A stretch of DNA of 64,000 bases from Roseovarius marisflavi (GTDB lineage Bacteria > Pseudomonadota > Alphaproteobacteria > Rhodobacterales > Rhodobacteraceae): NCBI RefSeq assembly GCF_900142625.1, contig NZ_FRBN01000021.1:1-64000 (forward strand). Reading direction: 5' to 3'. Positions 9,937-14,795 of the stretch are shown here, in pieces (position 1 is the first letter of the stretch; every line of letters begins with the position of its first letter). Below the pieces are notes generated by a model. It was not told the DNA's origin, ran no database searches, and was given only the letters and a program-made list of their open reading frames with translations. The position numbers and the translations under genes are program-made.

Positions 9937-10109
9937 CTAACCCTGGCAGGGAGTAAAATCCAACACATAACCGGACCGAGACACCGGGCACTTTCATCGC
10001 GGCGTGTGAGGCGCAGGCGACTGGGAAACCGTTATGCCTTTGGCGTCGTCTGGGCGGAAAAAAACTGGCTTTGGCCGAACTTAAAAATGCTGAACATGGG
10101 GCAGTCGAT

Positions 10110-13100
10110 ATGAAGATCGAAAGAAAATTCACCACCTCCGGGACCGACGCATATGCGGCGTTGAACTTTGTGACCACCAGCTCAGAGATCCGCAATCCCG
10201 ATGGCACCACGGTGTTCCGCCTCGACAATGTCGAAGTGCCCGACGGCTGGAGCCAGGTGGCAAGCGACGTCATCGCCCAGAAGTATTTCCGCAAGGCGGG
10301 CGTGCCCGCACGTCTCAAGAAGGTCAAGGAAAAGGGTGTTCCCGAATTCCTGTGGCGCTCGGTGCCCGCAGAGGCCGGCGTTGAAACCGGCGGCGAGACC
10401 AGCGCCAAGCAAGTGTTTGACCGTCTTGCCGGGGCCTGGGCCTATTGGGGCTGGAAGGGTGGCTATTTCACCACCGAGGCCGACGCGAGCGCCTATTACG
10501 ACGAGATGCGTTTCATGCTGGCCAATCAGATGGCCGCGCCGAACAGCCCGCAGTGGTTCAACACCGGCCTGCATTGGGCCTATGGCATCGACGGCCCCGG
10601 CCAGGGCCACTATTACGTCGATTTCGAAACCGCCAAGCTGACCAAATCCAAAAGTGCTTATGAGCACCCGCAGCCGCACGCCTGCTTTATCCAATCCGTG
10701 GCCGACGATCTTGTGGGCGATGGCGGCATCATGGATCTCTGGGTGCGCGAGGCGCGTCTGTTCAAATACGGCTCGGGCACCGGCACCAACTTTTCAAGCC
10801 TGCGCGCTGCGGGTGAAAAGCTGTCGGGTGGTGGCAAATCCTCTGGCCTGATGGGCTTTCTCAAAATCGGTGACCGCGCGGCCGGCGCGATCAAATCGGG
10901 CGGCACCACGCGTCGCGCGGCGAAAATGGTGATCTGCGATGCCGACCACCCCGATATCCAGGAATTCATCAACTGGAAGGTCAAGGAAGAGCAAAAGGTC
11001 GCCAGCATCGTTGCCGGCTCCAAGATGCACGAAGAAAAGCTCAACGAAATCTTCGCCGCGATCCGCGCCTGGGATGGCAGCAGCGAAGATTCGGTCGATC
11101 CCAAGAAGAACGAGCAGCTCAAGACCGCGATCCGCGGCGCCAAAAAGGTTGCGATCCCCGAGACTTACGTCAAGCGCGTGCTGGATTACGCCAAGCAGGG
11201 CTATGAGAGCATCGAATTCCCGACCTATGACACCGATTGGGACAGCGAAGCCTATGCAAGCGTTTCGGGCCAGAACTCGAACAACTCGATCCGGGTGACC
11301 GATGCCTTCCTCAAGGCGGTCAAGGATGATGCCGACTGGGCGCTTCTTAACCGGACCGACGGCAGCGTCGCCAAGACCATCAAGGCGCGCGACCTCTGGG
11401 AAGATGTCGGCCACGCGGCATGGGCCTGTGCCGATCCGGGCATTCAGTATCACGACACCGTCAACGCCTGGCACACCTGCCCCGAAGACGGCGAGATTCG
11501 CGGCTCGAATCCCTGCTCGGAATATATGTTCCTTGACGATACCGCCTGTAACCTGGCCTCGATGAACCTCTTGAAGTTCTTCAAGGATGCCAAGTTTGAC
11601 GCCGACGCCTATGTCCACGCCTCGCGTCTCTGGACCGTGACGCTGGAAATCTCGGTGACGATGGCGCAATTCCCCTCCAAGGAAATCGCGCAGCGCTCTT
11701 ATGACTTCCGCACGCTTGGTCTTGGCTATGCCAATATCGGTGGCCTGCTGATGAACATGGGCCTTGGTTACGACAGCGACGAGGGCCGCGCGCTCTGCGG
11801 TGCCCTGACCGCCGTCATGACCGGTGTCGCCTATGCCACAAGCGCCGAAATGGCCGGCGAGCTGGGCGCGTTTCCGGGCTACAAGCGCAACGAAAAGCAC
11901 ATGCTGCGCGTGATCCGCAACCACCGCAACGCCGCTTACGGCGCGACCGAAGGCTATGAGGGCCTTGCCGTCAAACCCGTGCCGCTCGACCTCGGCAATT
12001 GCCCCGACAACCGCCTTGTCGATCTGGCGATGGCAAGCTGGGACGAGGCGCTCAAGCTTGGTGAAAAGCACGGCTATCGCAATGCGCAGACCTCGGTGAT
12101 CGCGCCGACCGGCACCATCGGCCTTGTGATGGATTGCGACACCACCGGGATCGAGCCGGACTTTGCCCTGGTGAAGTTCAAGAAGCTCGCCGGTGGCGGT
12201 TACTTCAAGATCATCAACCAATCGGTGCCCGCCGCGCTTGAAAAGCTTGGCTATGGCTCGGCGCATATCGAAGAGATCGTCAGCTATGCCGTCGGTCACG
12301 GCACCATCGGCAACGCTCCGGGGATCAACCACACCTCGCTTGTGGGACACGGCTTTGGCGTGAACGAACTGGCCAAGGTTGATGCGGCTCTTGGCTCTGC
12401 CTTTGATATCCGCTTCGTGTTCAACCAGTGGACGCTTGGGCTTGAGTTCTGCACCAATGTTCTTGGCATCCCGGCCGAACAGCTCAACAGCCCGACCTTT
12501 GATCTTCTGGCGCACCTTGGCTATTCGAAAAAGGATATCGATGCCGCCAATGATCACGTCTGTGGTTCGATGACGCTTGAGGGCGCGCCGCATCTTGACC
12601 CGGCGCATTACCACGTCTTTGATTGCGCCAATGCCTGCGGTAAGAAAGGCAAGCGTTATCTGTCGGTTAACAGCCATATCACGATGATGGCCGCGGCCCA
12701 GTCGTTCATCTCGGGCGCGATTTCCAAGACCATCAACATGGCCAATGACGCCACCATCGAGGATTGTCAGAAAGCTTACGAGCTGAGCTGGTCGCTTGGC
12801 GTCAAGGCCAACGCGCTCTATCGCGACGGCTCGAAACTGAGCCAGCCTCTGGCCGCAAGCCTTGTCGAGGATGACGAAGAGGCCGCAGAGGTTCTTGAAA
12901 GCGGATCGGCCCAGGAAAAAGCCAGCGTTCTGGCGGAAAAGATCGTCGAAAAGATCATCGTCAAGGAAATCCAGAAATCGCACCGCGAAAAACTGCCTGG
13001 CCGACGCAAGGGTTATACGCAAAAGGCGATTGTCGGCGGTCACAAGGTCTATCTGCGCACCGGCGAATATGAAGACGGCAACCTTGGTGAAATCTTCATC

Positions 13101-13793
13101 GACATGCACAAAGAGGGTGCGGGCTTTCGCGCTATGATGAACAATTTCGCCATTGCGGTGTCGGTTGGTCTTCAGTACGGCGTGCCGCTTGAGGAATTCG
13201 TCGATGCCTTTACCTTCACCAAGTTCGAACCGGCCGGCATGGTGCAGGGCAATGACAGTATCAAGAACGCCACCTCGATCCTCGACTATATCTTCCGCGA
13301 ACTGGCTGTAAGCTATCTTGATCGCACCGATCTGGCGCATGTCAAACCCGAAGGCGCAAGCTTTGACGACCTCGGGCGCGGCGAAGAAGAGGGTGTCTCG
13401 AACGTCTCGGAAATGAGCAGCGATGCCGCCAGCCGGTCGCTTGAAGTGCTCAAGCAGATCAGCTCGACCGGCTATCTGCGCAAGCGCCTGCCGCAGGAAC
13501 TTATCGTTCTGAACGGTGGCCAGCACATGGCCCGCGCCGTGAGCAATGCGATGGATCCGGTCAACGCGCTGGAAACCCTCGTGCCGGCCACCTCGTCGGG
13601 AACGATGACGGCGACCGTGGCGACGACCACCACGGCGATGGCATCGGGCACCGTGGGCATGGATGCGCGCACCAAGGCCAAACTTCAGGGCTATGAGGGC
13701 GAGGCCTGCGGCGAATGCGGCAACTACACGCTGGTGCGCAACGGCACCTGCATGAAATGCAACACCTGCGGTTCGACAAGCGGGTGCAGCTAA
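10110..13793 (+). CDS. nrdJ: Adenosylcobalamin-dependent (class II) ribonucleotide reductase
   Basis: Reduces ribonucleotides to deoxyribonucleotides without oxygen or an NrdB partner, using adenosylcobalamin to generate the thiyl radical. The 1227-residue length fits the long Rhodobacteraceae NrdJ form. Seen: [34 protein letters not shown], the active-site [35 protein letters not shown], and a C-terminal cysteine-rich tail with CGEC and CMKCNTC, which carries the redox thiols that re-reduce the active site. The start was set at ATG 10110 (MKIERKFT, the usual N-terminus) rather than an upstream TTG. The last 79 coding bases recur 716 bases downstream, beyond a protease gene. Confidence 0.95.
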
Positions 13794-13794
13794 G
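13713..13794 (+). repeat. 82-bp direct repeat, copy 1 (nrdJ 3' end)
   Basis: The last 26 codons and stop of nrdJ plus one base. They recur at 14429-14510 with only three mismatches (Thr/Met, and synonymous changes in Lys and Gly codons). Together the copies bracket the ImmA/IrrE gene. Confidence 0.95.
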
Positions 13795-13805
13795 AGGAGG
13801 TCAAG

Positions 13806-14414
13806 ATGAAGCGTAGGCCAATTCTTACCACTTTACGGGCGACTGAAATTTGGACGGAAATGCTTTGGTTTCGGCGTGAGCTTTATAGCGACGACAAGTT
13901 CTTCAAGATGACCGACGTTTGGGAAACCCTTTGCAACGACTTTGAAAAATGGACGATGAGAACCTATCGATCTAATCAATTGGAAGATTTTAAACGTAAA
14001 GCTGGGGTTGTGGCGCTCGATGATCGCGTTACTCTGACAGCAGATGAAAAGCTTATAGCAAACGCAAAGCATGGCTGTAAGTTATCTAACTTCATTCTTG
14101 CTCACGAGTTGGGGCACCTCGCTCTCGATCACCATGCTAGAGGCGCAGTTGTTAAGAACTTTCAGTTGTTCTCTGGAGCCAACGGCATGTGCAACGTGCC
14201 CCCGACACTGGAAGAATTGGAAACGAACTACGCGGCAGTTTTCTTTCAGTGCGGCGCTGCGTTGGAGGATACTTGCTGGAGCCCAATCCAACTAGCGCAT
14301 CGGGCGTTTTCAGATGTCGAGTATGTGAAAAAGGCGCAGGCGGTCGTTCGACTCGATGTATTTCAGCGTGAGTTGAGGCGGCCAAAGCCAAAACGAGAGA
14401 GGGTTATCTTATGA
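13806..14414 (+). CDS. ImmA/IrrE family metallo-endopeptidase in a repeat-bounded cassette
   Basis: A 202-residue protein with the zinc-peptidase motif HELGHLALDHH (about residues 98-108), where the two His and the Glu of HExxH bind metal and activate water. It is followed by LEELETNYAAVFF, which resembles the third-ligand helix of ImmA/IrrE proteases. Such proteases cleave XRE-type repressors (ImmR of ICEBs1, DdrO for IrrE). No repressor gene lies beside it. A very strong ribosome binding site (AGGAGG at 13795-13800) sits directly behind the nrdJ stop, so it is probably co-translated with nrdJ. The DNA is clearly AT-richer than nrdJ and differs in codon use, pointing to foreign origin. Confidence 0.8.
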   Translation: MKRRPILTTLRATEIWTEMLWFRRELYSDDKFFKMTDVWETLCNDFEKWTMRTYRSNQLEDFKRKAGVVALDDRVTLTADEKLIANAKHGCKLSNFILAHELGHLALDHHARGAVVKNFQLFSGANGMCNVPPTLEELETNYAAVFFQCGAALEDTCWSPIQLAHRAFSDVEYVKKAQAVVRLDVFQRELRRPKPKRERVIL

Positions 14415-14509
14415 TGTCTAACTCGTCAGAATGCGGCAACTACATGCTGGTGCGCAACGGCACCTGCATGAAGTGCAACACCTGCGGTTCGACAAGCGGC
14501 TGCAGCTAA
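14411..14509 (+). CDS. Small ORF: duplicated NrdJ C-terminal cysteine tail
   Basis: A 32-residue frame whose start overlaps the protease stop (ATGA at 14411-14414), preceded by GAGAGAGGG. After a six-codon leader (MMSNSS) it repeats the NrdJ tail: [20 protein letters not shown] and on to the same last residue. Five of the six tail cysteines are kept; the first Cys of the CGEC pair is absent, so the zinc-knuckle arrangement is incomplete. It may be translated, or may simply be the scar of the insertion. No homologous free-standing peptide is known to me. Confidence 0.5.
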   Translation: MMSNSSECGNYMLVRNGTCMKCNTCGSTSGCS

Positions 14510-14510
14510 G
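14429..14510 (+). repeat. 82-bp direct repeat, copy 2
   Basis: Second copy of the nrdJ 3' end (79 of 82 bases identical). The nrdJ-like terminator region follows this copy, suggesting it is joined to the original downstream DNA. Confidence 0.95.
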
Positions 14511-14622
14511 CCTTCGGGCAAACGCAACAAGTTCTGGGGCGGGTGCGCTCGCCCTGAACGCGGATCAGGATACAGGCGAAAAACAATCGGGCGGTAAATA
14601 AATCCACCTGATCCGTGACACT

Positions 14623-14646
14623 GGGGGGCCTCGTGCCCCCCTTTTT
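14623..14646 (+). terminator. Rho-independent terminator of the nrdJ unit
   Basis: A perfect 7-bp stem GGGGGGC/GCCCCCC with a 5-base loop is followed by TTTTT. Confidence 0.85.
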
Positions 14647-14718
14647 CTTGGGTGCACAGGGTGGCCTGTCTCAAAGAATATTTGAAAACAGCGACTTGCG
14701 GCGCAAACTTAAGGTGAA

Positions 14719-14795
14719 TGGTAGGCCCGGAGGGACTCGAACCCCCAACCAAAGCGTTATGAGCGCTCTGCTCTAACCAATTGAGCTACAGGCCC
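14719..14795 (-). tRNA. tRNA with CAU anticodon (tRNA-Met, or tRNA-Ile2)
   Basis: A full cloverleaf of 77 bases including an encoded CCA on the reverse strand. It has an acceptor GGGCCTG, D-arm GCTCAATTGGTTAGAGC, anticodon loop CTCATAA (anticodon CAT) and T-arm GGGGGTTCGAGTCCCTC. It is not an initiator: the acceptor starts with a G-U pair and there is no GGG/CCC anticodon-stem motif. Elongator Met and lysidine-modified Ile2 both carry CAU; sequence alone does not settle which. Confidence 0.9.

Follow-up and report, generated by a model that had tools for sequence, protein, structure and literature searches.

ImmA of ICEBs1, IrrE of Deinococcus and CapP of CBASS are ImmA/IrrE (MEROPS M78) peptidases. 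Known elements integrate into the 3′ ends of protein genes and restore the gene, and Rhs/CdiA loci carry displaced orphan C-terminal modules downstream. Each of these systems resembles in part a Roseovarius marisflavi locus behind nrdJ, the gene for the class II (B12-dependent) ribonucleotide reductase (RNR). According to Loderer et al. 2017, the six extreme C-terminal cysteines of NrdJ bind zinc and relay electrons to the active site, and turnover with TCEP requires all six (PMC5704485). The same study describes the loss of the tail domain of T. maritima NrdJ through spontaneous cleavage, the encoding of the cysteine-rich domain (CRD) as a separate subunit in NrdJa+b, and the failure of a separately expressed tail domain to restore truncated NrdJ (PMC5704485).

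The window (the whole stretch of 64,000 nucleotides of R. marisflavi DNA analysed in this work) harbours an intact nrdJ on the plus strand (10071..13793; PF02867, PF08471 and PF12637 TSCPD), listed from a TTG, with an ATG present slightly further in. Repeat comparison demonstrated that its 3′ end (tail copy 1, 13713..13794, plus strand) recurs downstream (tail copy 2, 14429..14510, plus strand) with 79 of 82 positions identical (96% identity, 3 mismatches, spacing 716 nt), as the sequence-only reading of this DNA had reported. The repeat comprises 78 sense bases and the stop codon of nrdJ plus one further base. The C-terminal tail of NrdJ, a zinc-binding electron shuttle with six cysteines, is encoded for the most part by copy 1, which includes five of these cysteines. 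The remaining direct-repeat families at 11-17 kb are 20-28 nt long and at most 86% identical; the 82-nt repeat is real and far beyond chance. Behind the nrdJ stop lies a Shine-Dalgarno-rich gap (13795..13805, plus strand) with AGGAGG immediately 3′ of the stop, and the peptidase ATG is 15 nt past the first base of that stop. The peptidase gene (13806..14414, plus strand) encodes a divergent HExxH metallopeptidase of 202 aa, M78/ImmA-IrrE-like by motif (family A in this work). Its GC content was 0.49 (0.43-0.54 in 300-nt windows within the gene) vs. 0.58 in the last 1,400 nt of nrdJ. This gene and a mini-ORF are all that lies between the repeats, without a site-specific recombinase; the earlier description of a low-GC accessory insert lacking an integrase, with AGGAGG behind the nrdJ stop, holds.

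The peptidase gene is flanked by nrdJ on one side and, on the other, by a terminator and a tRNA followed by further ORFs, which we take to be purM- and purN-like. Neither a CapH repressor nor a CBASS cyclase or effector adjoins it in the window, and the tRNA, located beyond the module, was the sole match of the Rfam scan. In a simple scan of the window, the plus strand showed no terminator-like site from the end of nrdJ to the peptidase gene; all plus-strand terminator-like sites in 13500-14760 use the stem at 14623, 3′ of the module, and nrdJ and the peptidase are therefore predicted to share a transcript. The native nrdJ 3′ structured region (14530..14645, plus strand) includes the terminator-like site at 14623-14641, and its counterpart in the sister genome G308 comes directly after nrdJ. 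This region contains the GGGGCGGGTGCGCTCGCCC hairpin, a GATCAGG...CCTGATC stem and then the terminator. It folds with a z-score of -3.25 vs. shuffles, has no Rfam match and is a possible 3′-derived RNA; its hairpin motif was found in 37 of the 69 non-carrier nrdJ ends of the genus.

Copy 2 lies within an in-frame ORF of 32 codons (14411..14509, plus strand; sequence and frame check) encoding a free NrdJ tail (MMSNSS plus 26 residues), which the sequence-only reading had overlooked together with the occurrence of the same layout in another genus. The mini-ORF ATG overlaps the peptidase stop (14411-14414), and the frame stays open through copy 2 to its stop. In-frame mini-tail ORFs were also found in Rhodobacteraceae bacterium NBU2976 (L003, ATGA overlap with the peptidase stop), in the MAG UBA3080 (L002, ATG approximately 20 nt past the peptidase stop, AGGA ahead of the ATG) and in G299 (TGATG overlap with the peptidase stop), so that all four intact-looking family-A loci have an in-frame ATG. 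G319 and G278 were classed as damaged by our own reading: G319 has an in-frame TAG near the peptidase start and a copy 2 without a start codon, and in G278 the peptidase frame is out of register with the ATG behind nrdJ and copy 2 is absent. Copy lengths were 81, 123, 123, 74 and 73 nt in family A and 86 (G037), 57 (G469), 81 (G077) and 79 nt (G316) outside it, so that the repeat ranges from 57 to 123 nt over the loci. An in-frame start ahead of the copy was present in 5 of 9 loci (the four intact family-A loci and G077, with a GTG overlapping the stop), a frequency that could be explained by chance according to a rough estimate. The codon differences between the copies are better evidence for the mini-tail: they were 14 synonymous to 2 non-synonymous in intact family A (P = 0.022 vs. 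a half-neutral model) and 2 synonymous to 5 non-synonymous in the other five loci. Gene conversion from nrdJ can on its own maintain this synonymous pattern of copy 2 and so restricts its value as proof. The mini-tail varies as a unit: one of the six cysteines is missing in the window and two are missing in G299, and its leader differs from genome to genome.

Window peptidase residues 100-104 are HELGH, with H100, E101, G103 and H104 invariant in four aligned members, and an E-x-E-[AT]-N motif follows, as in the M78 members occupying the same position in other genomes (families B and C). The match of the window protein to Pfam PF06114 (Peptidase_M78) was below the cut-off (E=0.042, 14.1 bits, cut-off 22), and no PF06114 match was listed for the L002 and L003 peptidases, while the family B and C members tested were above it (6/6). 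The name ImmA/IrrE protease proposed from the sequence thus appears reasonable for the fold class, as judged by the motifs, but the protein falls short of formal Pfam membership. The best PADLOC model for the window peptidase was capP (E=9e-4), as in all nine carrier peptidases tested, with E values of only 9e-4 to 5e-3 in the three of family A; RmrA was the next model in 5 of 6 family B and C peptidases. An AlphaFold model of family A built from three sequences had a mean pLDDT of 38.7. Sequence searches of the PDB gave unrelated weak matches with the family-A profile (best E 0.04), without an M78 relative, and non-significant matches to CapP (E 0.34) and an IrrE orthologue (E 0.97) with the family-B profile. 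Families B and C are clearly related (E 1.6e-19). By contrast, the hhalign alignment of A vs. B was limited to the 13-residue HExxH stretch, which indicates that the slot was filled by zinc peptidases at least twice.

All strong members found of families A and B were located directly behind nrdJ (17/17, in 11 genera), and 13 of them came up regardless of position. This does not support a lone cassette with accidental cargo; the sequence-only reading had envisaged a one-gene cassette. All six genomes with family A, the window type, carry it directly behind nrdJ, and protein similarity alone led to five of them. It was searched in draws of 84 genus, 295 family and 13 other genomes and in one contig collection, rather than in all genomes, and the sample is small (six genomes, four intact-looking). 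The 84 genus genomes gave four strong matches, all at nrdJ, and one weak match; the 295 family genomes gave G000 and G278 again and two weak matches. L002 and L003 were obtained from a genome-contig scan and are the same DNA as G477 and G444, the two matches among 13 genomes of their genus. The weak family-A matches (G158, G283 and G301) were rejected: their frames are approximately 290 aa long and no nrdJ tail was found at their loci L006, L007 and L010.

Family B, a true Peptidase_M78, was behind nrdJ in 11 of 11 strong members. Its profile, built from three sequences (G037, one of the nine strongest matches, and G351 and G336, which entered via the slot), gave 12 matches at E<=1e-15 in 11 of 394 family genomes. 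The nine at E<=1e-37 were directly behind nrdJ (9/9), as were the eight independent of profile building (8/8); the three between 1e-18 and 1e-15 had no nrdJ tail nearby. Family B was searched in this draw of 394 family genomes, which may have missed members in the rest of the genus of the window. A class-wide draw gave no family-B match in 376 genomes, at least 5 of them from the same family; this draw included no known carrier as a control. Family C comprises G469, G323 and G457. When 238 genomes were searched with its profile, 14 of them yielded 15 matches: six were family-B cross-matches at nrdJ and nine had no recognised nrdJ tail nearby. As the three family-C genomes are absent from these 14, dedication of family C to nrdJ is not demonstrated. 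The variant tail of G195 escaped the motif search and was identified by eye, and an nrdJ near some family-C or weak family-B matches may be hidden likewise.

GC content was below that of the own nrdJ in all 20 carrier peptidases measured (0.42-0.56 vs. 0.55-0.68). With first-ATG calling, four of six family-A and five of 11 family-B members have the peptidase ATG 13-16 nt past the first base of the stop codon of nrdJ. A comparison of 20 carriers with 129 non-carriers revealed no NrdJ tail residue that clearly divides them (lowest p 0.047 in many tests). Peptidase distances followed NrdJ distances in family A (Pearson 0.88, Mantel p 0.003, n=6) and did not in family B (0.18, Mantel p 0.25, n=11); the family-A result is not what would be expected of a freely moving cassette. 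At the thresholds applied, no plasmid, phage or viral contig matched family A, and searches of plasmids and viral contigs with family B gave three distant matches in plasmid records (34-48% identity) and a single one in a viral contig (36%).

The tail copy was present in only one of 11 family-B carriers, so the repeat does not define the association with nrdJ. It was also absent in two of the three family-C carriers, and tail copies accompany unrelated, non-peptidase cargo in G077 and G316. Several of these loci showed further peculiarities. In G316 (L041:1653-2200), the slot contains two small uncharacterised genes, of 69 and 79 aa, which are separated by a decaying tail copy. G077 (L073:1722-2205) harbours a 57-aa protein (MATNPPKGDG...) followed by an identical tail copy with a GTG overlapping the stop, and a similar-looking protein lies behind nrdJ in G023 (L171). 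In G469 (L075:1820-2497), the family-C peptidase frame continues out of frame across the tail copy, giving a chance C-terminus; a small ORF precedes the peptidase here and in G457.

We surveyed the slot between the nrdJ stop and the nrdJ terminator across the genus (77 nrdJ ends, 75 of them with at least 600 nt downstream). The slot is empty in the sister genomes G308 and G314 and holds other small genes in some genomes. HExxH peptidases occupied it in 7 of the 77 ends: family A in G000, G278, G319 and G299, family B in G351 and G336, and family C in G323. Three of these seven score for PF06114, compared to approximately 0.04 expected if the genus's 180 matches were random (P ~1e-5, given an assumed 3,900 genes per genome). 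Other occupants were found in G316, G301, G307, G362, G302, G328 and G359, a list drawn from the hairpin motif and ORF length and incomplete; the peptidases are the largest class among the listed genus occupants (7, next class 3). The conserved nrdJ 3′ hairpin was 600-980 nt past the stop in 6 of 8 genus carriers tested (the seven with peptidases and G316) and was not found in the other two, while in the 37 of 69 non-carriers that have it the median distance was 103 nt; six, at 474-589 nt, were other-occupant genomes. In the wider family, where 56 of the first 67 tail matches were examined, one slot peptidase was found (G457, family C); the known carriers G278 and G444 are among the remaining 11.

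Duplicate loci per genome were dropped from the slot counts, and 15 of 187 parsed loci had no parsed nrdJ end. G354 was excluded because its contigs (L042 and L043) break inside the nrdJ tail; they have a common 55-nt end, as assemblers leave at repeats, which suggests a repeat at the break, and no insert is visible, although one is probably missing. Longer-frame second tails located on other contigs (G110, G337 and G387), weak second matches with long frames (G189 and G263), and an HExxH match approximately 1.7 kb behind nrdJ in G326 were left uncounted. The same applies to G032 (L076:1600-1700), whose second partial tail, approximately 0.1-0.2 kb behind the first across an N run, may be a scaffolding artefact. 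A protein type of 91-96 aa (TIECDGxTSEPLxIEV), recognised by eye, occupies the slot of G307, G362 and G354, with a second form in G359 (L027, L028, L043 and L117).

The sister genomes G308 and G314 are seamless empty sites in which nrdJ, with a single copy of the repeat, passes directly into the sequence that follows copy 2 in the window. Over flank blocks of 100 nt, identity to the window is 88-100% for G308 and 75-99% for G314. The insert is thus absent from these two and replaced by other genes elsewhere, a presence/absence comparison that the sequence-only reading had called for, and these sites are in line with its proposal that a deletion between the repeats would leave a normal nrdJ. 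There are also signs that the repeats still recombine. When copy 2 was compared with 145 distinct nrdJ ends, the host genome's own nrdJ was the nearest in eight of nine loci; in the window, copy 2 matches the nrdJ of the sister G308 at 79/81 positions vs. 78/81 for its own. The L002 and L003 copies begin at the same codon and match their own nrdJ at 112 and 119 of 123 positions, respectively, vs. 107 of 123 between the two copies. The repeats of G319 and G299 have 0 mismatches over 73-74 nt, and their peptidases are 69% and 56% identical to that of the window. The proximity of copy 2 to its own nrdJ and the mismatch-free repeats point to either gene conversion or recurrent exchange. Tail searches covered 84 genus and 394 family genomes; where a second tail copy shared the contig with nrdJ, it was approximately 0.1-1.1 kb away, and none was at long-element distance. 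An integrase gene was not recognised in any of the six inserts read, and no integrase-borne parent element was found.

We tentatively favour the reading of this locus as an NrdJ-dedicated metallopeptidase module that would recognise or trim the NrdJ tail and be gained and lost by recombination. Support is good for the anatomy of the locus and fairly good for the dedication of families A and B. We infer NrdJ as the peptidase substrate, and likewise the shared transcript, the production and decoy role of the mini-tail, any trigger and the transfer route. The peptidase, its gene sitting between the nrdJ stop and the nrdJ terminator, would be made from the nrdJ message, and in family A a translationally coupled mini-ORF would supply a free NrdJ C-terminal zinc/electron-shuttle tail. 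As the most likely mechanism, the peptidase would bind or trim the exposed C-terminal tail of the host NrdJ, and perhaps also of the class II RNRs of phages, and thereby reduce the supply of dNTPs in response to some trigger; the mini-tail, produced together with the peptidase, would act as a decoy or brake. The failure of a separate domain to rescue truncated NrdJ (PMC5704485) speaks against a role of the mini-tail as a functional spare, so that a decoy, inhibitor or adaptor remains. The module would enter and leave via homologous recombination across the highly conserved tail DNA, so that precise loss would give back a normal nrdJ. A more specific version seems unlikely to us in its full form: an RNR kill-switch, in which the peptidase would clip the NrdJ tail of host or phage and halt dNTP synthesis, the free tail being a titratable decoy that sets the threshold.

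Other explanations lead from the same observations to different conclusions. A passive hotspot is doubtful, though the main rival: foreign single-gene fragments would enter at the nrdJ tail by RecA-dependent/homology-facilitated recombination (transformation, gene transfer agents), the tail duplication would be a scar, and the peptidase would be unrelated to NrdJ function. The conserved DNA of the nrdJ tail serves well as an anchor for such recombination, and this explanation accounts for the variety of cargo (unrelated genes in the slot of G316, G301, G307, G362, G302, G328, G359 and G077) and for the scars (tail copies behind non-peptidase cargo in G077 and G316). The low peptidase GC in 20/20 carriers measured, the family-B distances that do not track those of NrdJ and the lack of an integrase gene in the six inserts read are also in line with it. 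It does not account for the fidelity of two unrelated peptidase families to the slot (17/17 strong members found, 13 of them regardless of position), with peptidases as the largest class of listed genus occupants (7 vs. next 3), or for the mini-tail, which in intact family A retains its start codon and nearly its whole protein sequence. An ancient tandem duplication of the 3′ end of nrdJ, later interrupted by a gene and neither mobile nor functional, is highly improbable; the divergence of family A tracks NrdJ (Mantel p 0.003, n=6), which is in its favour, but the seamless empty sites in G308 and G314 speak against it, as do the repeats of G319 and G299, free of mismatches over 73-74 nt despite 69% and 56% peptidase identity.

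We also give very little credence to descent from an integrase-carrying element whose attachment site was the 3′ end of nrdJ and of which one gene between attL and attR is left. The repeat does lie at the 3′ end of a conserved gene that is left intact, but its length ranges from 57 to 123 nt and the second tails on the nrdJ contig in the 84 genus and 394 family genomes searched are approximately 0.1-1.1 kb from nrdJ, with none at long-element distance. A defence gene that uses the nrdJ promoter is improbable: NrdJ would merely be the host operon, providing a CapP/RmrA-like stress or phage sensor with a strong growth-linked transcript. Defence genes are commonly low in GC and patchily distributed; capP was the best PADLOC model in 9/9 carrier peptidases (the three of family A at only E 9e-4 to 5e-3), RmrA was second in 5/6 of families B and C, and some phages carry a class II RNR with this tail. 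However, no partner gene adjoins the peptidase in the window, and the free NrdJ tail is left without a reason.

A class II RNR with an NrdJ-type tail was found in four phage records and in viral contigs. A 31-kb metagenomic viral contig (L222) starts inside an nrdJ tail (positions 1-86); no integrase was recognised in the ORF list of its first 3 kb, and the contig was set aside. In the open-licence literature, we found neither nrdJ together with ImmA nor an nrdJ insertion in Rhodobacteraceae, and the nrdJ-peptidase pairing was absent from the titles among the matches listed; as far as that literature shows, the pairing is unreported. Many bacteria and some phages make their DNA precursors with a class II RNR. 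Two unrelated peptidase families kept 3′ of nrdJ would suggest a level of RNR control not described before or a defence directed at RNR, and the kill-switch, if true, would mean proteolytic control of the DNA precursor supply via a substrate tail duplicated as a separate gene. The genome-encoded free redox tail permits a direct test of peptidase, NrdJ and mini-tail together, and the intact gene, natural empty sites and 57-123 bp repeats make a clean system for the turnover of an integrase-free single-gene insert.

Compared to the known systems, the window peptidase resembles the M78 peptidases in its HExxH and second E-x-E-[AT]-N motif, its small stand-alone form and capP as its nearest PADLOC model. 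It differs in being fixed behind nrdJ without an adjoining HTH repressor or CBASS genes, in the position of family A under the Pfam M78 cut-off and in the RNR tail copy that follows it. The direct repeat of the gene end flanking the window insert, with the target gene intact, recalls the elements integrated into 3′ ends, but here there is no integrase, the repeat is variable, the insert has one gene and most family-B carriers lack the repeat. As in the Rhs/CdiA loci, a displaced copy of a gene 3′ end lies downstream, whereas the NrdJ tail copy is near-identical to the tail in use and is not a toxin. The duplicated DNA encodes the extreme C-terminal end of the cysteine-rich domain of NrdJ, a domain that NrdJa+b encodes separately; the CRD there is 150-220 aa long (PMC5704485), vs. 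32 aa for the mini-ORF, and the full-length NrdJ of the window retains its tail. An NrdJb-like CRD would have all six cysteines: the mini-tail of the window has five and that of G299 four, while those of L002 and L003 have all six.
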